From the NCBI RefSeq assembly GCF_902833085.1, contig NZ_CADFEB010000008.1:233858-297857 (forward strand): a DNA stretch of 64,000 nucleotides, read 5' to 3'. The stretch is from Burkholderia ubonensis. Lineage in GTDB: Bacteria; Pseudomonadota; Gammaproteobacteria; Burkholderiales; Burkholderiaceae. Shown here one piece after another: positions 26,291 through 35,561 of this stretch; the first letter of the stretch is position 1; each line of letters begins with the position of its first letter. Made by a program: the position numbers and the translations under genes. The notes below the pieces were generated by a model. It ran no database searches. It had not been told where the DNA came from and saw only the letters and a list, made by a program, of their open reading frames with translations.

Positions 26291-27676
26291 ATGTCCGACC
26301 GCTCCAGGATCGCCGCCGTCTATCTGCTCGGCTTCGCGATCGATCTCGCCAACATGTTCATGCTCAACGCCGCGTATCCGGCGCTGCAGCGCGAACTGCA
26401 CGCGTCGGTCGCGCAGCTCGCGTGGGTCGGCAACGCGTACGTGCTCGGCCTGACCGTCGTGATCCCGCTCGGCGCATGGCTCGCGCGCCGGGTCGGCGAG
26501 CGGCGCGTGCTGTCGGCGTCGCTGCTGCTGTTCGGGTGCGCGAGCCTCGGTGTCGCGCTGTCCGCGTCGATCGGCGCGCTGCTCGCATGGCGCTTGATCC
26601 AGGGGCTCGGCGGCGGCCTGCTGATCCCGGTCGGGCAGGCGATGACGTATCGCGCGTACCCGCCGGACGCGCGCGCGCATCTGACGTCGGTCGTGATGAT
26701 GGTCGCGCTGCTCGTGCCCGCGCTGTCGCCGGCGCTCGGCGGCATCGTCGTCGACCGGGTGTCGTGGCGGGCGATCTTCGCCGGCATGCTGCCGCTCGCG
26801 GTCGCGACCTGCGGCCTCGCGCTCGCGTGGCTGCCGCCCGACGGCGCGCGTGCGCGGCCCGAGCCGCTCGACTGGCCGGGATTCGGCCTGAGCGCCATGG
26901 CGCTCGTCGCGCTGCTGTTCGGCCTGACGTTCGCCGGCCAGCCCGGCGCGGGCCGGCTCGCGATGCCGACGCTCGCGGCCGCGCTCGCCGCCGGCATCGG
27001 CTACGCGTGGCACGCGCGCCGCGCCGCCGCGCCGCTGCTCGATCTCGGCCTGCTCGCGCAGCCGCTGCTGCGTGTCGGCGTCGTCATCTATCTGTGCGTG
27101 CCGGGAGTATTCGTGGGCGTCAATCTCGTCGCCGCGCTGTACTTGCAGAACGGCCTCGGGTTGAGTGCCACGCATGCGGGCGCGCTGATGGCGCCGTGGG
27201 CGATCGCGTCGTTCGCCGCCATCGCGACGACGCGCCGGGGCTTGCCGCGCTGGGGCGCGAAGCCGCTGTTCGTCGGCGGCATCGTGGTGGACTGCGCGGG
27301 CATCGTGCTGCTCGCGACGCCGCTGGCCGCGATCGACGCGGGGCGCGTGGCCGCGTTCGCCGCGATGGGGTTCGGCGCCAGCCTGTGCACGAGCACCGCG
27401 CAGAGCGCGGCGTTCGTCGACGTGCCGGCGGAGCGCATGGGCGACGCGAGCGCGCTGTGGAACCTGAACCGGCAACTGAGCTTCTGTGTCGGCGTCGCGG
27501 TGCTCGGCAGCGCGTTCAACGGGCTGCTGGCGCTCGACGCGGGCGGCCCGGCATTGCTGCCTTACCGGCAGAGCTTCGCGCTCGCGGCCGCGCTGACGCT
27601 GATCCCGCTGTGGCTCGTCGCACGGCTTGCAACACGTCCCGCCGTGGTCGCGCAACCGGTTTCCCAACGATCCTGA
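26291..27676 (+). CDS. MFS transporter (DHA2-like)
   Basis: 461-aa inner-membrane exporter. Helix 1 reads FAIDLANMFMLNAAYPALQREL, then GAWLARRVGERRVL for motif A, and many hydrophobic segments follow. ATG 26291 is chosen because an upstream extension to 25967 would run back through the LysR gene. Probably regulated by the divergent LysR protein and co-transcribed with the short gene 10 bases downstream. Substrate unknown. Confidence 0.87.
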   Translation: MSDRSRIAAVYLLGFAIDLANMFMLNAAYPALQRELHASVAQLAWVGNAYVLGLTVVIPLGAWLARRVGERRVLSASLLLFGCASLGVALSASIGALLAWRLIQGLGGGLLIPVGQAMTYRAYPPDARAHLTSVVMMVALLVPALSPALGGIVVDRVSWRAIFAGMLPLAVATCGLALAWLPPDGARARPEPLDWPGFGLSAMALVALLFGLTFAGQPGAGRLAMPTLAAALAAGIGYAWHARRAAAPLLDLGLLAQPLLRVGVVIYLCVPGVFVGVNLVAALYLQNGLGLSATHAGALMAPWAIASFAAIATTRRGLPRWGAKPLFVGGIVVDCAGIVLLATPLAAIDAGRVAAFAAMGFGASLCTSTAQSAAFVDVPAERMGDASALWNLNRQLSFCVGVAVLGSAFNGLLALDAGGPALLPYRQSFALAAALTLIPLWLVARLATRPAVVAQPVSQRS

Positions 27677-27686
27677 GGAGCTTGCC

Positions 27687-28085
27687 TTGAAACTGTCGAA
27701 TCCGTATTTCCAGGAAGTCGTCGACGCGCACGTCGACATCGAAGCATGGCTGTCCGGCCGCGCGGAGCCCGGGCGGCTCGCGACGCTGCTGGCGCGTTTT
27801 TCGCCGCAGTTCTCGATGATTACGGTGCAAGGTGCGCCGATCGGTTACGCGGGCGTCGACGCGCTGTTTTCGCAGGGATGGAATGCGCGCCCCGGGCTGC
27901 GGATCGAGATCGACGAATGTCGGGAAATCGCCGCATGCGATGGCGGCGCGGTGATCGGCTACCGCGAGACACAGACCGACGGGATGGGACGATGCACCGT
28001 CAGGCGCTCGACCGTCGTATTCGAGCGCGATGCGCACGGGCGCATCGTGTGGCGGCATCTGCACGAAACGCCGGTTGCGGGCTGA
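27687..28085 (+). CDS. NTF2-like (DUF4440/SnoaL-type) small protein
   Basis: 132-aa protein with an NTF2-like cone pattern: N-terminal helices (NPYFQEVVDAHVDIEAWLSG), a central GYAGVDALFSQGW segment, and a C-terminal strand series ending STVVFERDAHGRIVWRHLHET. The start is a TTG at 27687 with GAGGAG at 27675-27680, overlapping the MFS stop, which supports translational linkage. Such proteins often hydrolyse or bind small ligands; no function can be assigned. Confidence 0.75.
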   Translation: MKLSNPYFQEVVDAHVDIEAWLSGRAEPGRLATLLARFSPQFSMITVQGAPIGYAGVDALFSQGWNARPGLRIEIDECREIAACDGGAVIGYRETQTDGMGRCTVRRSTVVFERDAHGRIVWRHLHETPVAG

Positions 28086-28146
28086 TGCCGCGTCGGGTGG
28101 CCTCCAGCTTGCGCATCGGCAAGAGGAGGACCGGACCTCGACGACG

Positions 28147-29274
28147 TCATTCCGACTCCGTCCGGGCCGCCCCGCCCATTTGCTTCAGGAATCGCCGCTG
28201 CGCGGCGATCAGCTCGCGGTAGGTGAGCACCCGGTATGGCACGCCGTGGCGCGCGGCGATCGGCGCGGCGAGCGCCGCGAGCGCGTCGCAGTGGCGATGG
28301 TGCCAGGTCGGGAACAGATGATGGGTCGCGTGGCGGTGCAGCCCGCCGAGCCAGAACGCGAGCCAGCGCGGCTCGGGCAGCCAGTCGACTGCCGTATGCA
28401 GTCCATGCTCGCGCCAGCCGTGCGGCAGCGGCTCGCAGTCGGGCGCGCGGTAGAACGCAACGTCGGCCCAGTGCGTGCCGAGCAGCAGCCCGACGACGAA
28501 GCACGATGCGCACATCTGCGCGATCACATATGCGGCGATGACACCGCCCCATCCGATGCCTGTTCCGTGTAGTGCCCAGACGGGCAGCGCGAGCATCAGC
28601 GCGAAGTGCGTGAGCTTCGCGCCGACGAACGTGAGCCAGCCGCGCACGCCGGGCAGCGGGCGGTGCCGCGCGACGGGCGTCTTGCCGAGCCGATCCGACC
28701 AGTCGTAGATCCAGCCGATGTACGGCATCGACAGTGCCGCGATCAGCGGCCAGTACAGGTGCTGGTAGCGGTGGTGCGGGCGGCGCGTCTGGAACGGCGT
28801 CTGGCACAGGAAGAAGTTTTCCTCCAGATCGAGATCGCGGCCCTCGATGTTCGCGTACGGGTGATGAAACGCGATGTGGCGTACGCGCCAGTACGCCGGC
28901 TCGATCCCGAGCGGCACGGTGACCGCGCGCGCGATCCACGCGTTCAGCCGGCGGCCCGCGGCGGGCGAGACGCGAGGCGGCCCGATCAGCGTGCCGTGCG
29001 CGGCGTCATGCATGAAGTTGATCGCGAGCACTGCGAACAGCATCACGAACGCGACGTACCCGAGCGCGAAGCGTGCCGGGCCGCCGGCCGTCAGCGCGAC
29101 ACCGCCTGCGCCGAGTGCGGCGCTCAGCAGGACGGCGCCCTTGAGCCATTGCCGCGCGTCCGCGTAGCGGTGATCGTTTGCCCCGCGCAGGTAGGCGGCG
29201 GATGCGATGCGCAGCTCCGCGTCGAACGGCGGCGTGCCTTCGGGCCACACGTGGGTGGCGGGTCGCGGGTCCAT
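28147..29274 (-). CDS. Membrane fatty acid desaturase
   Basis: 375-aa integral-membrane di-iron enzyme. The three histidine boxes are visible: HDAAH (near residue 88), HIAFHH (near 131) and HRHATHH (near 315), with hydrophobic helices between. It introduces a double bond or oxidation into an acyl chain. ATG 29274 overlaps the stop of the hydroxylase-type gene by one base (TGATG), so the two are translationally coupled. Last gene of the seven-gene lipid operon. Confidence 0.9.
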   Translation of the reverse strand: MDPRPATHVWPEGTPPFDAELRIASAAYLRGANDHRYADARQWLKGAVLLSAALGAGGVALTAGGPARFALGYVAFVMLFAVLAINFMHDAAHGTLIGPPRVSPAAGRRLNAWIARAVTVPLGIEPAYWRVRHIAFHHPYANIEGRDLDLEENFFLCQTPFQTRRPHHRYQHLYWPLIAALSMPYIGWIYDWSDRLGKTPVARHRPLPGVRGWLTFVGAKLTHFALMLALPVWALHGTGIGWGGVIAAYVIAQMCASCFVVGLLLGTHWADVAFYRAPDCEPLPHGWREHGLHTAVDWLPEPRWLAFWLGGLHRHATHHLFPTWHHRHCDALAALAAPIAARHGVPYRVLTYRELIAAQRRFLKQMGGAARTESE

Positions 29275-30386
29275 CAGCGTGCTCCGAGCATCGCGCGGTG
29301 CCGCTCGCGCGCGAACAGGCAGGCGGCGCCGTGCAGTCCGACCAGCGCGACGAGCGCACAGCCGAGCGGATCGCGCCAGCCGAACCCGACGATGAAACAG
29401 GCCGGCATCGCGAGCGCCGCGACGCTCCATGCGGTGCGCGCCCACGCGCGTCCGTCCGACAGCGCGCCGAGCGCGATCGTCTGCGCGGCGATCCAGCCGA
29501 ACAGCAGCGGCTGCTGCGGCGCGGGGAAGGTGCCTTGCCGGTGCACGTAGTAAATGACGACCGCGAACAGCGCGAGCCCGCCCGTCGCGATCCAGCCGTC
29601 GCCGATCCGCAGCGGATCGCGCGCGGGCAGCCGGGGCGCCGCGAGCCCGAGGTAGCGCAGCACCGGGATGTTGTTCGCCCAGAACGGATTGTCGGAGCGC
29701 ACCGCGTCGTGCACGCCGTAGCGGATCGGCGCATGCGGCAGTTCGCGCTGGTAGGTGCCGAACAGCTTGTCCCAGATCAGCAGCGTGCCGCCGAAGTTCT
29801 TGTCGATGTATTCCGGGTTCAGGCCATGATGGACCCGGTGGTTCGCCGGCGTCACGAAGAAGCGGTCGAGCCAGCCGGACCGGTAGATCGTGCCGCAGTG
29901 GTTGTAGAACTGCACCGAATAGTGAAACCCGCCCACCAGCACGAACGCCTCGACGGGCACGCCGAGCATGGCGAGGCCCGCGAAGAACGGGATCGACGTA
30001 AGCGACGAGTACCACGAATTGCGCACGCCGAGCGACAGGTTGAAATGCTCGCCTTCGTGGTGGACGACGTGGACCGCCCACATCAGCGGAATCTTGTGAT
30101 GCAGCCGGTGCAGCCAGTAGAAGCAGAAATCCCACGCGAAGAACGTGAAGATCCAGACGCCGGGCACGCCGAGCCGGTCGACCCAGTGCAGGTTCGCGTG
30201 CGCGGACAGCCACGCGAACACCGCGACCTCGGCGCCGCGGAACAGCCACAGCACGATGTGCCCGGAATTCAGGTTGAAGATCACGTCGCGCCACGGCGCG
30301 CGCTGCCCGCGCAGCCAGCGCAGGCCGGCCACGTCGGCGACCACGAGCGCCACCATCACGGCGAGCGGTAAAGCGAACACATTCAT
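29274..30386 (-). CDS. Sterol desaturase / fatty acid hydroxylase superfamily protein
   Basis: 370-aa integral-membrane di-iron oxidase. Histidine clusters are WLHRLHH, HVVHHEGEHFN and NHRVHHG within residues about 100-205, the pattern of the fatty-acid hydroxylase superfamily. The last 110 residues are extra hydrophobic helices, as in alkylglycerol-monooxygenase-like members. GGAGG precedes ATG 30386, which overlaps the PAP2 stop by one base. Probably hydroxylates or desaturates the lipid made by this operon. Confidence 0.88.
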   Translation of the reverse strand: MNVFALPLAVMVALVVADVAGLRWLRGQRAPWRDVIFNLNSGHIVLWLFRGAEVAVFAWLSAHANLHWVDRLGVPGVWIFTFFAWDFCFYWLHRLHHKIPLMWAVHVVHHEGEHFNLSLGVRNSWYSSLTSIPFFAGLAMLGVPVEAFVLVGGFHYSVQFYNHCGTIYRSGWLDRFFVTPANHRVHHGLNPEYIDKNFGGTLLIWDKLFGTYQRELPHAPIRYGVHDAVRSDNPFWANNIPVLRYLGLAAPRLPARDPLRIGDGWIATGGLALFAVVIYYVHRQGTFPAPQQPLLFGWIAAQTIALGALSDGRAWARTAWSVAALAMPACFIVGFGWRDPLGCALVALVGLHGAACLFARERHRAMLGAR

Positions 30387-30988
30387 CAAGCGGTCCTCCG
30401 GGAGAACGCGGGCAGCCTTGCGGCGAGCATCCCGCAGGCGAGCGCGACGAGCACGCCCGCCGAAATGTCGAGCGCCAGGTGGCGGCGCGTCTGTACGATC
30501 GAGTAGGTGATCGCCGCGCTCCACAGCACGACGAGCGTGCTGCGCCACGGACGGCGCGTGTCGACGAGTGCGCGCGCCGCGAGGCAGGTCAGCGCCGCGT
30601 GCAGCGACGGCAGGCAGTTCTGCGCGGAATCGCCCGCCGCGAGGAGCCGCAACGCGGCGGCGCTCAACGACGCGCCGGTGACGGGCGGGTAGTGCAGCGT
30701 GGTCGGGAACAGCACGAAGACGATGCCGGACACGAGCGCGCCGAACTGCATCGCGCGCATCAGCCAAGCCACGCGTGCGGCGTCCGCGCGAAGGTACGCA
30801 TACGGGATCAGCGCAAAGAACGACAGGTAGAGCCACACGCCGCTCGGATCGAATGGGACGAGCCGGTCGAGCGCGCTTTCGGTGAGTACCGTCCCGGGGC
30901 CCTGCAGCAGGCTGGACAGGGTATAGGCAACGCCGACCGCGCCCCAGCCGAGCGCCAGCGCGCGCAGTCGCGGCGGCAGCGCGATCAT
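30386..30988 (-). CDS. PAP2-family (inositolphosphotransferase-like) membrane protein
   Basis: 200-aa protein with about five membrane helices. PAP2 motif 2 appears as LPSLHAAL (near 126-133) and motif 3 as RRHLALDISAG (near 168-178). The first, Lys/Arg-containing motif is degenerate (only DTRRP at 143-147), so activity may differ from a classic phosphatase; the AUR1-like branch of PAP2 is a fair alternative. It may remove or transfer a phospho head group on a lipid. ATGA overlap with the adenylating-enzyme gene. Confidence 0.8.
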   Translation of the reverse strand: MIALPPRLRALALGWGAVGVAYTLSSLLQGPGTVLTESALDRLVPFDPSGVWLYLSFFALIPYAYLRADAARVAWLMRAMQFGALVSGIVFVLFPTTLHYPPVTGASLSAAALRLLAAGDSAQNCLPSLHAALTCLAARALVDTRRPWRSTLVVLWSAAITYSIVQTRRHLALDISAGVLVALACGMLAARLPAFSRRTA

Positions 30989-32286
30989 CGCGCCTCCTTC
31001 GCGCGGACGATGCGGCGCCGCTTCTGCGTGAAGTCGCGCGCGGGCACGACCGGGCTCAGGGTCCACGTGAGCGCGTCCGTGGCGACGCCGAGCCGCGCGA
31101 ACACGTCGACGAGATGCTGCCGGCACGCGGCGAGCGCGCCGGAGCCCGCACCGTCCACGCCCGTGTCGACCGCGAGCGAGAGCGCGGCGGGCGCCGTCTG
31201 CGTCAGCCGGTAGTCGGCGTGCAGCGGCAGCGCCTGCGCGAGCGCCCGCGCGCAGACGTCGGCGAACACGGTGCGCGGCGTGCCGTCGTGGCCGGGCAGC
31301 ACCAGCATGTCGTCGCAGCGCCCCTCGATCCGCTCGATCGCGAGCGCCGGGCTGCCGCAAGGGCAGGGTGTGCGGCGCACCGCGAGCACGTCGTCGAGCC
31401 GGTAGCGGACGATCGGCTGCGTGGAACGCGTGAAGTCGGTGATGACCGGCACGAAGCGCGTGTCGTCGAGCCACTGCGGTTCGACGTGGAGGAATTCCTC
31501 GTTCAGGTGCAGCGTGCCGTGCGCGCACGTCGCGCCGAGGAAGCCCTCGGTCGCCTGGTAGACCTCGTCGACGCGGCCGAACGTCTCGGCCAGCAGCACG
31601 CGGTCGAGCGGCTCCAGCACTTCGGCGACCGCGATGACGCGAGCCGGCCGCACGGCCAGCCGGCCTTCGCGCACGGCGATCGCGAGCGAGCACAGCACCT
31701 GGGCCGGCGCGACGACGATCGTCGGCCGGTACGCATCGAGCTGCGCGACCAGCGACTCGAACGGCTCGAACAGGTCGAAGAACCCGAACGACAGCCACGG
31801 CGTGCGGACCGCCGTGTACAGCCGGTTGTTCGCGCGCAGGAACAGCGCGACCCGTTCGCGATGCAGCAGCCCGTGCGGCAGCAGCTTCGCGAGCAGCACG
31901 CCGGCCCATGTCGCGCGCTCGGCCGGGCTCGCGACGAACACGCCGCGGCTGCCGGACGTGCCCGACGACAGGCCGACGCTGTAGCGCCCGAGCATCGGGC
32001 TGAAGTCGCGCGACTGCTCGGCGCGATGCGCGCACGCGAGCACCTCGTCGAGCGTCAGCCCCGCGGTGTTCATCGCGTCGAAGTGCGCGAGCATCGCCGC
32101 CTTGTCCATCAGCGGCCATGCGTCGCGCGGCTGGCTCGCGTACGGCGCGAACCACGGGCTGCGCGCGAGCACGGTGCGCGCGAATCGTTCGAGCCCGCGC
32201 GCCTGGTGGCGTTCGAGCGCCGCGCGGTCCGCGAAGCGGCGCGTGCGAGTGCGGGCGTAGGCCCACAGCAGGCGGTGCGGCTGCAT
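30985..32286 (-). CDS. PaaK/CapK-like adenylate-forming enzyme (F390 synthetase-related)
   Basis: 433-aa ATP-dependent carboxylate-activating enzyme of the PaaK/F390-synthetase-related group. Motifs seen are the phosphate loop LSSGTSGSRG (near 105-114), YQATEGFLG (aromatic-x-E motif) and YRLDDVL (ribose-binding Asp), with a C-terminal Lys/Arg-rich tail. It should activate an acyl or beta-hydroxy/keto acid as an acyl-AMP. It overlaps the MBL gene by one base upstream and PAP2 by four bases downstream. The acid substrate is unknown, but the KAS III and SDR partners suggest a fatty-acid-derived acid. Confidence 0.85.
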   Translation of the reverse strand: MQPHRLLWAYARTRTRRFADRAALERHQARGLERFARTVLARSPWFAPYASQPRDAWPLMDKAAMLAHFDAMNTAGLTLDEVLACAHRAEQSRDFSPMLGRYSVGLSSGTSGSRGVFVASPAERATWAGVLLAKLLPHGLLHRERVALFLRANNRLYTAVRTPWLSFGFFDLFEPFESLVAQLDAYRPTIVVAPAQVLCSLAIAVREGRLAVRPARVIAVAEVLEPLDRVLLAETFGRVDEVYQATEGFLGATCAHGTLHLNEEFLHVEPQWLDDTRFVPVITDFTRSTQPIVRYRLDDVLAVRRTPCPCGSPALAIERIEGRCDDMLVLPGHDGTPRTVFADVCARALAQALPLHADYRLTQTAPAALSLAVDTGVDGAGSGALAACRQHLVDVFARLGVATDALTWTLSPVVPARDFTQKRRRIVRAKEAR

Positions 32287-33092
32287 CACAGTGCGCCCTC
32301 GTGTGTAAGCAGGATCGTCGCGCGGCCGCCGGCGTCGAGCTGATGCAGCCGGTCGAGCGTCGCGTAATAGGCGCGCGGATCGTCCATGATCAGGTGCGCG
32401 ATCCGCGACGGTCCGCGCGGCTCGCGGTAGCCCTGCGGCGACCACGCCGAATCCGACGCGAGCAGCACCCAGCCGCTGTCGGTCGCGACGAACGCGCCGA
32501 GATGGCCCGCCGCGTGGCCGGGCAGTTCGACCAGCAGGATGTCGCCGCCGGCGTTCGGCAGCGCGTAGGCGTGCTCGAACGGCGCGAGCTCGGCGGGCAG
32601 CGCGACGCGCTCGAAGCTTTCGACGAAGCACGCGCGTGCGTCGAAGTCGTCCGGCATCAGGCCCGGCACGAAGCCGCGCCTGAGCGCCGCGATGCCGCGC
32701 AGCGGGCGCGTCGCGCGCCAGCCGTCCCCGGAACAGATCATCGGCACGCCCGGGAAGTCGCGCAGGCCCGCGATGTGGTCGCCGTGGAAGTGCGACACCA
32801 CGACGCCCGCGAGATCGGCGGGGCGCAGGCCTTCGCGCGCGAGCTGCGCGGCGATCGCGTCGGTGGCGTTGAAGTACACGGGCGTCACCTTGCGGTACAG
32901 CGCGAACACGCCGCGCCGCGTGTGGTCGAGGAAGTGCGACGCGTAGCCGGTGTCCCACAGCCAGCGCCGGCCGTTCGCCTGCAGCAGGTAGCAGCGCGAC
33001 GGGAACGCGCACGCGGAGAAGCCTGCGCCTCGCAGCGCGACGCAGCCGGGATGGGTGCAGTAGCCTGCCTCAAATGCCGTAATGGTTGCCAT
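32286..33092 (-). CDS. MBL-fold metallo-hydrolase
   Basis: 268-aa metallo-beta-lactamase-fold hydrolase. The dinuclear metal motif HFHGDH sits at 101-106 (H101, H103, D105, H106), with later ligands in PGHAAGH (about 195) and SDSAW. The sequence resembles the lactonase-like branch. Its gene overlaps the SDR gene by 23 bases. In this setting it may hydrolyse a thioester or lactone intermediate; this is inference. Confidence 0.87.
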   Translation of the reverse strand: MATITAFEAGYCTHPGCVALRGAGFSACAFPSRCYLLQANGRRWLWDTGYASHFLDHTRRGVFALYRKVTPVYFNATDAIAAQLAREGLRPADLAGVVVSHFHGDHIAGLRDFPGVPMICSGDGWRATRPLRGIAALRRGFVPGLMPDDFDARACFVESFERVALPAELAPFEHAYALPNAGGDILLVELPGHAAGHLGAFVATDSGWVLLASDSAWSPQGYREPRGPSRIAHLIMDDPRAYYATLDRLHQLDAGGRATILLTHEGAL

Positions 33093-34083
33093 GCGTACGA
33101 ATCCAGTCCGCGGTGAGACGTATGCCGTCGTCGATCGAGATCGGCGGCCGGTAGCCGAGCAGTGCGGCGGCGCGCGTGTTGCTGAGCGTCATGTCGAAAT
33201 GAAGCGCGCCGATCCCGTAGCGCGTGAGCAGCGGCTCGCGGCCGCGCGCGTGGCCGCCCAGCTCGGAAACGCGTGCGAGCGCGTCCAGCAGCGGATACGG
33301 CAGCGCGCGGATCCGGTAGCGCAGCTGAAGCGTGTCGCCGAGCAGGCGTTCGAGCAGCGACGCGAGCGTGCACGGCTCGAAGTTCGTGATGTTGAATGCG
33401 GCGCCCGATGCGACCTGCGCGTGCGTCGCGACGCGCAGCGCATGCACGACGTTGCCGACGTAGGTCAGGTCGACGAGCGCGGCGCCGCCGCGCGGCAGCG
33501 GCAGCACGCCGCGTCGCGCGTGCAGCAGCTGCAGGATGCGCGGCACGATCACGCGGTCGTGCGGGCCGAACAGCCCGCGCGGGCGCAGCAGCACGAAGGT
33601 CGTGCCGGGATGCGCGCCGGCGAGCGCGCACAGCTCGTCTTCTGCCTGCGCCTTGGTCGCCGCGTAGTGATTCACGAAGCGCGCGGCGCGATACGACTCG
33701 TCGATGTCTTGGTGATGCCGGTAGTCGAAGTAGATCGACGGCGTCGATACGTGCACGAAGCGCGGCACGCCGCGCGCGGCGGCCGCTTGCGCGAGCCGGC
33801 GGGTTGCGGTCACGTTCGACGCGACGAAGTCGTCGCGCCGGCCCCACGGCGACGACAGCGCCGCGCAGTGCCAGACCGCATCGACGTCGCGCAGCAGCGC
33901 GTCGGCCTGCGCGTCGTCGAGCGTCGCGAGCTCCGCCGGCACGAACTCGGCGCCGGCCGCGCGCAACGCCTCACCCGCTTCGAGATTGCGGCCGGTTGCG
34001 CGCACGGCGCGGCCGTCCGCCAGCAGTGCGTCGACGGCGTTGCGGCCGAGCCCGCTCGTCGCGCCGGTCACGAGGATCTTCAT
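33070..34083 (-). CDS. NAD(P)-dependent epimerase/3-beta-HSD family reductase (OleD-like)
   Basis: 337-aa extended SDR. The nucleotide motif VTGATSGLG is at residues 5-13, and the catalytic set is S113 in HVSTPS with Y140 and K144 in NHYAATK. It belongs to the 3-beta-hydroxysteroid dehydrogenase-like group that includes OleD, the reductase of 2-alkyl-3-ketoacids. Translationally coupled by ATGA to the KAS III gene, so it likely reduces the keto group of that enzyme's product. Confidence 0.88.
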   Translation of the reverse strand: MKILVTGATSGLGRNAVDALLADGRAVRATGRNLEAGEALRAAGAEFVPAELATLDDAQADALLRDVDAVWHCAALSSPWGRRDDFVASNVTATRRLAQAAAARGVPRFVHVSTPSIYFDYRHHQDIDESYRAARFVNHYAATKAQAEDELCALAGAHPGTTFVLLRPRGLFGPHDRVIVPRILQLLHARRGVLPLPRGGAALVDLTYVGNVVHALRVATHAQVASGAAFNITNFEPCTLASLLERLLGDTLQLRYRIRALPYPLLDALARVSELGGHARGREPLLTRYGIGALHFDMTLSNTRAAALLGYRPPISIDDGIRLTADWIRTHGNHYGI

Positions 34084-35060
34084 GCGACGAGCACCATCCC
34101 GCCAACCGTCAGTCCGGCCGCGGTGCCGATCAGCAGCGCGCGGGTGCCGCGCGTGAAGCGTCCCTGCTCGATCGCTTCGTGCAGCGCGGTCGGGATCGAC
34201 GCCGCGACCTGGTTGCCGTGCTGCGCGTAGATGTCGACGAGCGACTCGGGGCGCATGCCCAGACGCTTGCGGATGTGTTCCATCGCGAGGTGGCTCGCCT
34301 GATGCGGGATCACGACGTCGACGTTGCGCGCCGCGTGCGCGTTGCCGCCGAACAGCTGCTCGAGGAAGCCGCCGATCACCGTGGACGCGAGCCGGAACAC
34401 GCGCTTGCCGTCCATCCGGAACAGGTAGTCGGCCGGCTCGGCGCCGATGCGCGGATTGCGGCGCGTGCCGCCTGCGCGGACTTCGCAGAACGCGTTGCCT
34501 GCGGGGTAGGTTTCCATCCGGAACGCCTCGATGCCGGTTGCCGCATCGCCGCGCTCGACGATCGCGGCGGCCGCGCCGTCGCCGAAGATCAGCGATGCTT
34601 CCGGGTCGTTCCAGTCGATGCCGCGTGACGCCAGGTCCGACGCGACGATCGCGATGCGCCGGTATGCGCCGCTCGCGAGCAGGCTTGCCGCGACCTGCAG
34701 CGCGGCGACGAAGCTCAGGCAGCTCGCGTTCACGTCGAACGCGGCGGTGCCGGCCGGCAGCCCGGCCGGCCCGAGAATCCGGCTCGCGGTGCTGGGCAGC
34801 GCCTGCTCGCCGACGCCCGACGCGGACAGCAGCAGGTCGATCGACGCAGGCGCGACCTGGCCGCGCTGCAGCGCGTCACGCAGCGCGGTCGCGGCCAGCC
34901 CGGATTGCGTTTCGGCGTCGTCGGCGTAGTAGCGGACGTCGATGCCCGACTTCTTGCGCGAGAAACCCGGCTTGTGCTCGAGCAGCGCGTCGAGCTCGCT
35001 GGACGTGACGCGCCGCGACGGCAGCGCCTTGCCGGTGCAAATGATTCGAATGGGAAGCAT
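34080..35060 (-). CDS. 3-Oxoacyl-ACP synthase III family protein (FabH/OleA-like)
   Basis: 326-aa thiolase-fold condensing enzyme. The catalytic triad is C114 in NASCLS, H253 in IPHQAS and N283 in HGNQVAAS, all intact. It is the first gene of a seven-gene minus-strand operon. ATG 35060 is used although it lacks a clear ribosome site; GTG 35096 is an alternative. Lack of fab genes around it argues against housekeeping FabH. It more likely makes a dedicated beta-keto product from acyl-CoA or acyl-ACP for the downstream enzymes. Confidence 0.9.
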   Translation of the reverse strand: MLPIRIICTGKALPSRRVTSSELDALLEHKPGFSRKKSGIDVRYYADDAETQSGLAATALRDALQRGQVAPASIDLLLSASGVGEQALPSTASRILGPAGLPAGTAAFDVNASCLSFVAALQVAASLLASGAYRRIAIVASDLASRGIDWNDPEASLIFGDGAAAAIVERGDAATGIEAFRMETYPAGNAFCEVRAGGTRRNPRIGAEPADYLFRMDGKRVFRLASTVIGGFLEQLFGGNAHAARNVDVVIPHQASHLAMEHIRKRLGMRPESLVDIYAQHGNQVAASIPTALHEAIEQGRFTRGTRALLIGTAAGLTVGGMVLVA

Positions 35061-35177
35061 GGCGTGGGACAGTGGAAGCGGGGTGCCTGCGGTCACGCGC
35101 GAACGCGGCGCGCGATGCTTGACTTCGAGGGCCGATGACCGATTCCTGCGGAATGGATGTCAGGCGGGAAGCATTCG

Positions 35178-35270
35178 ATGAAACAGGACACCTTTCTTTC
35201 TCTCAGTTTGATTATCTTGATCGTTATCGCGCTGGTGCGGGGAGCGCGCGCTGCTGACGGTTCCCTCTGA
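35178..35270 (+). CDS. Possible 30-residue membrane peptide
   Basis: A short frame starting MKQDTFLSLSLIILIVIALV, which reads as one hydrophobic helix or signal-like segment, then RGARAADGSL. A weak GGGAAG lies 9 bases before the ATG. Its lower GC and hydrophobic run stand out from the surrounding spacer, but nothing else proves expression. Confidence 0.2.
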   Translation: MKQDTFLSLSLIILIVIALVRGARAADGSL

Positions 35271-35561
35271 CGCCGTTGGCCGACGCATGTCGTTCGCGAC
35301 AGGGAAGCCATGTTGCAGGCCGGCCGAATGCTACCAAAATTGGTCGCCGACAGGGCGGCGTCGTTGTGCAGGGCCGTCTCACGTTACTCGGCGGCACGCA
35401 TTGTGGTGCTGGCCGGCGTCCCGGGGCAGAAGTCATCGGCGCTGCGCATGAGCACGCACGCGATTGCCGGGTAATGCCGATACAGGTATTGCCACTACCA
35501 GCCAAGATGCTGTTTTTATTGGGTTTTTTCTCGTCGTGTGCGCACCGGAGCGCAATCTGCG

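Follow-up and report, generated by a model that had tools for sequence, protein, structure and literature searches.

The window described here is a stretch of 64,000 nucleotides from a contig (NZ_CADFEB010000008.1) of Burkholderia ubonensis, in a genome of 7.77 Mb, and our subject is a run of seven genes on its minus strand, from 35060 down to 28147, in which every junction overlaps. The first gene encodes a KAS III ketosynthase (beta-ketoacyl-acyl carrier protein (ACP) synthase III; 34080-35060) resembling FabH, MxnB and CorB; it opens with ATG, and a GTG start at 35096 is possible. Next come a short-chain dehydrogenase/reductase (SDR; 33070-34083), which falls in the NAD-dependent epimerase and 3beta-HSD families of Pfam and carries YxxxK, a hydrolase of the metallo-beta-lactamase (MBL) fold (32286-33092) with HFHGDH and PGHA motifs, and a PaaK-clade adenylating enzyme (30985-32286; ATG, or possibly GTG at 32289). 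These four genes are called the core below. Three membrane proteins complete the operon: a PAP2-superfamily protein (PAP2_3; 30386-30988), a fatty-acid hydroxylase (PF04116; 29274-30386; ATG, or possibly TTG at 30389) and a fatty-acid desaturase (PF00487; 28147-29274) with histidine boxes. With ATG starts, the six junctions from KAS III to desaturase share 4, 23, 1, 4, 1 and 1 bases. An earlier sequence-only reading had given these families and coordinates, and the reading of open reading frames (ORFs), Pfam and NCBIfam bear them out; the Pfam domain calls hold for all seven proteins.

The same reading held that the overlaps argue for one pathway, and the seven-gene arrangement is indeed one conserved unit, not a chance assembly. 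A 16-member ligase alignment, scanned against named genomes, gave 356 confirmed relatives, and the seven window proteins were mapped onto the loci of the best 80. Since these are the best 80 of 356 by ligase, the loci lean to beta- and gammaproteobacteria. Four loci had flanks too short to be used; the other 76 have 5 kb or more on either side. KAS, SDR, MBL and PaaK genes stand consecutively and in the same order in 73 of the 76 (72 from the chain script, and locus L126 added by hand where overlapping ORFs broke the script), and all seven genes are present in 53. Two of the 73, both within the 53, have one gene split into two ORFs, the MBL gene in L050 and the KAS gene in L107. An adjacent KAS is absent from three flanked loci (L056, L058 and L059). 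The tight junctions also recur: among loci with both genes placed, an in-frame start overlaps the preceding stop in 72/76, 59/79, 77/79, 57/60, 45/58 and 38/50 cases for the six junctions in turn, counted with a script that takes the start nearest the preceding stop and so favours overlap. A motif script found YQATEG in 80/80 ligases and HxHxDH in 79/80 MBL proteins.

An even sample of Pseudomonadota agrees with this. The ligase occurs at E ≤ 1e-40 in 10 of 398 genomes, the host included, and SDR, MBL and PaaK genes are adjacent in 10/10 of them. KAS is also present in 8/8 genomes with a wider DNA reading, the window among them; G334 and G374 lie outside that reading. In addition, dN/dS is 0.06-0.16 across the seven genes between Escherichia coli and E. 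whittamii, and 0.13-0.32 between the window and B. stagnalis. Purifying selection, with dN/dS well below 1, thus acts on every gene of the operon in both species pairs, the Escherichia pair and the Burkholderia pair.

The core is lipid-type in its gene families, is conserved far more widely than Burkholderia, and stands beside exchangeable finishing enzymes. Beta- and gammaproteobacteria commonly have PAP2, the hydroxylase and one or two desaturases as the finishing set. A desaturase lies ahead of KAS in 5/76 loci and ahead of SDR in two of the three KAS-less loci, and a second SDR continues the operon in 10/76. In Alphaproteobacteria, Bacillota and Fusobacterium the core occurs without PAP2, hydroxylase and desaturase. 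In a Klebsiella sp. (L108) it is followed by an OleD-like second SDR, whose best NCBIfam match is the Shewanella model of the OleD-type reductase, then by a GT21 glycosyltransferase and by a protein with sub-cut-off GT1/GT28 matches. Fusobacterium vincentii (L153) has GT21 and a small companion protein beside the core. GT21, the family that includes ceramide glucosyltransferase, is above the Pfam cut-off at both loci, with 31% mutual identity. In Ketogulonicigenium vulgare and Paracoccus alcaliphilus, a divergent TetR gene and a sulfotransferase accompany the core. In Paenibacillus and Pontibacillus, KAS and SDR are separated by an annotated ATP-grasp gene, the Paenibacillus one with no Pfam match. 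Paraburkholderia PREW-6R has ATP-grasp and GNAT genes in addition to the core, and in Shinella the additions are GNAT, Rieske and ATP-grasp genes. An ATP-grasp protein is above the Pfam cut-off, and accompanied by a Rieske protein, in L130 and L133; the ATP-grasp match of L129 is under it. In a plasmid collection, 19 records had a match and ten of them were opened; all four core genes were found in eight of the ten, from three phyla, two of them having an ATP-grasp gene within the core and one having KAS last.

Within Burkholderia the operon is accessory, being carried by 3/61 congeneric genomes with the host counted. In the congeneric genome G466 the flanks match the window on the MFS/SnoaL side up to 28088 and on the leuC side from 35467, and 97 bases take the place of 7378, which marks 28089-35466, a feature without strand, as the accessory segment. 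The window ligase is 97% identical to a B. ubonensis ligase and 96% to that of B. stagnalis. The unit was rejected as a Burkholderia-only novelty, being rare in that genus and common elsewhere. Full or core-only forms occur in Cupriavidus, Ralstonia, Paraburkholderia, Pseudomonas, Pectobacterium, Serratia, Erwinia, Xenorhabdus, Janthinobacterium, Chromobacterium, Snodgrassella and others. Genes lying scattered in relatives would have spoken against the earlier reading; they are strongly co-conserved instead, and occur far beyond Burkholderiales, even if few Burkholderia carry them. Of 5426 complete E. coli genomes, 671 (about 1 in 8) have 80% or more of the seven-gene operon at a single place, among them the well-studied strains CFT073, ABU 83972 and E2348/69. 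Two annotated records (L128:8212-9001 and L156:5411-6200) place it 111 bases past narI, with purU/ychJ on its other side; ABU 83972 has two tRNA-Tyr genes in between. A phage origin was considered and rejected, the ligase having no match in 50,697 phage records at E ≤ 1e-20. Foreign base composition was likewise dropped as an argument, because the operon, in 1-kb steps, has 69-74% GC against 58-72% in the flanking steps read.

The KAS III has an intact catalytic triad (Cys114/His253/Asn283). Its best NCBIfam match is NF005541 / PRK07204, beta-ketoacyl-ACP synthase III, at 356.4 bits, below the cut-off of 402. By sequence its nearest solved relatives are MxnB and CorB, with which it has the NASCLSF and GG(T/S)R stretches in common. 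It scores 127-146 bits against two FabH proteins and 59 bits against an OleA that was taken beside an over-cut-off OleD. According to PMC4578411, OleA Glu117 and PpyS Glu105 deprotonate a plain acyl chain, and MxnB and CorB have Val94. The window KAS has Leu88 at the position of these glutamates, and ALP, PLP or SLP was found at the Leu88 stretch in 70/76 KAS ORFs of the loci, the other six being unreadable by the motif script. On the KAS alone, membership of the MxnB/CorB class is plausible. Like MxnB and CorB, the chain-fusing ketosynthases of myxopyronin and corallopyronin, it shows the Cys-His-Asn triad and the NASCLSF stretch and lacks the PpyS/OleA glutamate; unlike them, which release alpha-pyrones in antibiotic pathways, it stands with a reductase, a hydrolase and a ligase.

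The nearest solved chain of the SDR is a decarboxylating sterol-4-alpha-carboxylate 3-dehydrogenase. Its best NCBIfam match is the OleD-type 2-alkyl-3-oxoalkanoate reductase at 146 bits, far under the cut-off of 580, and OleD is also the best match of a distant core SDR, L131, at 189.5 bits. In the MBL protein, His101, His103, Asp105, His106, His193, Asp214 and His264 are invariant in 22 sequences; these seven residues are the expected metal ligands of the dizinc type. Its predicted model (pLDDT 89) is nearest to acyl-homoserine lactone (AHL) lactonases, with 4-pyridoxolactonase close behind, among the best 50 matches of the fold search. The protein thus has the marks of a dizinc MBL hydrolase with a predicted lactonase-like fold.

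The ligase belongs to TIGR02304, F390 synthetase-related, at 511.2 bits against a cut-off of 251.9, and the structures closest to its predicted model (pLDDT 86) are of the PaaK clade (BT_0428, PaaK1, NatL2 and AjiA1), with TM-scores of about 0.5-0.6. This upholds the earlier placement of the adenylating enzyme as PaaK/F390 type. Its adenylation motifs are conserved across the loci, and the family name is not known to carry a tested function. The PAP2 protein has PSLH and HxxxD in 65/65 sequences and KxxxxxxRP in 0/65. The latter is the classical first phosphatase motif, and PSLH is also a motif of AUR1. The protein may be a phosphatase or a head-group phosphotransferase, and the profile search of the PDB does not decide between a phosphatase and an AUR1-type transferase. 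PAP2 and desaturase proteins have no NCBIfam match at 0.001. The hydroxylase is weakly like the ornithine-lipid hydroxylase OlsE, and PDB sequence searches with it and with the desaturase gave nothing at E ≤ 1.

We propose, tentatively and with slightly less than even confidence, that a functionalised lipid is the product of the operon, whose pathway consists of the conserved four-enzyme core and a lineage-specific finishing set. The gene content, order, conservation, families, motifs and selection reported above are observations; the substrates, the order of the steps, the product and its location in the envelope are our inference. KAS III would join an acyl chain to a second ACP- or CoA-bound chain, which may be a beta-ketoacyl or malonyl thioester because the enzyme lacks the glutamate for deprotonating a plain acyl chain. 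The OleD-like SDR would then reduce the beta-keto group to a hydroxyl, and the dizinc-type MBL hydrolase would free the acid from the thioester product, or open a lactone. The PaaK-type ligase would adenylate the acid and so ready it for transfer to an acceptor. In the Burkholderia, E. coli, Serratia and Pectobacterium form, the chain would next be hydroxylated and desaturated by the membrane di-iron enzymes, and the PAP2 protein would remove or transfer a phosphate-bearing head group. In other lineages, GT21, sulfotransferase or ATP-grasp/GNAT/Rieske proteins beside the core would finish the product. The product would sit in the envelope. Enzymes such as GT21 and sulfotransferases usually decorate a hydroxyl or an amine, and we count these neighbours in favour of the proposal, along with the conserved core order, the conserved MBL and ligase motifs, the OleD matches of the SDRs, and the KAS with its intact triad, its stretches in common with MxnB/CorB and its grouping with them. 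Since several finishing sets hold enzymes for glycosyl, sulfo or phospho groups, a free hydroxyl on the core product is suggested. A wider form of the proposal, possible but somewhat less secure, is that an old mobile core makes an as yet unrecognised class of hydroxylated lipid backbone, spread over at least three phyla with interchangeable head groups (sugar, sulfate, phospho-head group, amino-acyl) and present in ~12% of complete E. coli, beside narGHJI in two records.

Several observations weigh against this proposal. The KAS tree was built from 30 KAS III proteins, among them 22 core KAS, three FabH rows, MxnB/CorB and OleA. The core KAS alone form one side of a branch with 55/64 support; core KAS and MxnB/CorB together are set apart from FabH with a support of 90/78, which is moderate and below the star level of the tree tool. 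OleA has a very long branch and falls on the operon-KAS side, not the FabH side (92/90, place unsure). Plain FabH-like elongation would also fit the same KAS residues. In the SDR, the glycine stretch is GxxxGxG and not GxxGxxG, the latter being found in 12/79. The MBL model matches lactonases, with no thioesterase among the 50 rows shown. The PAP2 profile against the PDB gives a slightly better match to LpxE (E 0.006) than to AUR1 (E 0.095). Among the seven genes Pfam finds no ACP and no acyltransferase, so the use of the activated acid is a gap in the proposed pathway. Finally, in 12/76 loci the core stands without any member of the three other families inside 300 bases, five of these loci, all Xenorhabdus, having a PAP2 gene 0.4-0.7 kb upstream of KAS; because of these core-only loci, the core product may be useful alone or be finished elsewhere.

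The sequence-only reading had seen an ole-like core here, with a beta-lactone-derived lipid as a possible product. In a true Ole-type route, two fatty acyl chains would be fused head to head and reduced to a 2-alkyl-3-hydroxy acid, and a beta-lactone would lead to an oxidised olefin or a beta-lactone lipid. The four steps run parallel to OleA-D-C-B, with the same logic of condensing, reducing and activating, the SDRs of the window and of L131 are both nearest to OleD, and the long OleA branch joins the operon side of the tree. The likeness stands for the SDR. It fails for KAS III as OleA, with a leucine in place of the glutamate described in PMC4578411 and 59 bits to an OleA, and it fails for the ligase as OleC: the enzyme is of the PaaK clade, and phmmer gave no match at 1e-3 to any ORF of one ole locus, whose OleC-type ORF was named by position and reading. 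There is also no OleB, as had been noted before, Pfam finding no alpha/beta hydrolase among the seven genes; the operon has the MBL hydrolase instead and adds the membrane oxidases and PAP2. Three tests, those of the glutamate, the ligase and the hydrolase, together with the OleD cut-off led us to reject membership of OleABCD, and we regard such a route as quite unlikely. Since KAS and ligase are not supported as OleA and OleC and the SDR reaches 146 of 580 bits, the beta-lactone idea has no specific support.

Another reading is a dedicated single-chain starter pathway. PaaK would make an unusual, perhaps aryl, acyl-CoA, KAS III would prime one malonyl extension in the manner of FabH, the SDR would reduce it and the MBL protein would act as a thioesterase, so that a 3-hydroxy fatty acid is desaturated, hydroxylated and put into a lipid. 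The FabH-type triad with leucine at the base position fits a decarboxylative condensation, several of the matching PaaK-clade structures hold aryl acids (phenylacetyl adenylate, salicylic acid), and an MBL thioesterase beside KAS III resembles PqsE with PqsD. We consider this pathway unlikely, though a real contender, as the KAS groups with MxnB/CorB instead of the three FabH rows, OleD and not FabG is the nearest family of the SDR, and the MBL model is nearest to lactonases. The kinship of the KAS with the MxnB/CorB pyrone synthases, the lactonase fold and the core-only Xenorhabdus loci could also be read as signs of a secreted small molecule, an alpha-pyrone-, lactone- or acyloin-like signal or antibiotic, where an MxnB-like fusion forms a ring that the SDR and the lactonase-type MBL protein process. 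The membrane hydroxylase, desaturase, PAP2, GT21 and sulfotransferase neighbours point instead to a lipid acceptor and make a secreted product improbable in our judgement. Two other known systems invite comparison. The alkylquinolone system (PqsA/PqsBC/PqsD/PqsE) also combines KAS III, an MBL hydrolase and an adenylating enzyme; the operon differs by its lipid-type reductase, desaturase and hydroxylase. Bacterial sphingolipid and ceramide pathways resemble it in GT21 in some forms, in the epimerase-family SDR, hydroxylase and desaturase, and in the PSLH that PAP2 has in common with AUR1. They differ in that the C-C bond of the operon pathway would be formed by KAS III, and Pfam finds no serine palmitoyltransferase-type enzyme among the seven operon genes, no genome-wide search having been made.

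If the lipid pathway is as we propose, many bacteria that live with plants, insects and humans, well-studied E. coli strains among them, use a conserved operon to make a lipid or lipid-like metabolite, and finishing enzymes swapped around an unchanging core would show how bacteria diversify such lipids. As the core is four genes and its carriers include easily grown species, the product is open to search by one deletion and a lipid extract. The sequence-only reading knew of no described pathway with this set, and we found no description of the operon in the open-access literature searched, including the ligase-family passages of PMC2649909, PMC9823363 and PMC5467263; subscription journals could hold one. 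In PMC9823363, a mutant of 'Coenzyme F390 synthetase', IYO_RS29540 of the kiwifruit pathogen Pseudomonas syringae pv. actinidiae, has a virulence score of 2 and is one of 91 reduced-virulence transposon mutants; the gene is a possible counterpart of the operon ligase. Psyr_5009-5012 was considered as a possible case of this operon and is probably not one, as a paper listed under those tags concerns the mgo (mangotoxin) operon.

Some further observations concern the surroundings and relatives of the genes. A plus-strand SnoaL-like ORF (window 27627-28085) converges on the end of the operon, and in G466 the match covering the end of this ORF stops 97 bases from the leuC-side match. Since the operon in two E. 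coli records lies 111 bases past narI and in the same direction, read-through from narGHJI, the anaerobic nitrate reductase operon, may occur, though the hydroxylase and desaturase are of oxygen-dependent types. A small companion with no Pfam match stands beside GT21 in Mangrovibacter (L095:13385-13975) and Fusobacterium (L153:4130-4777), with 26% identity between the two at E 1e-14, and by eye it may be alpha/beta-hydrolase-like. Two large plasmids carry the ligase among hypothetical genes, with an MBL gene and no KAS match in Pseudomonas sp. Leaf58 (L150:6070-8194) and alone in P. amygdali pMPPla107 (L155:6899-8197), so a separate use of the ligase is possible on these plasmids. Elsewhere in the host genome, the DNA at C3:545109-545636 matches a part of the gene for the operon hydroxylase with 69% identity, so that a hydroxylase paralogue may exist, and C9:55390-56726 (L143) holds a tandem pair of other KAS III genes that are not close to the operon KAS.

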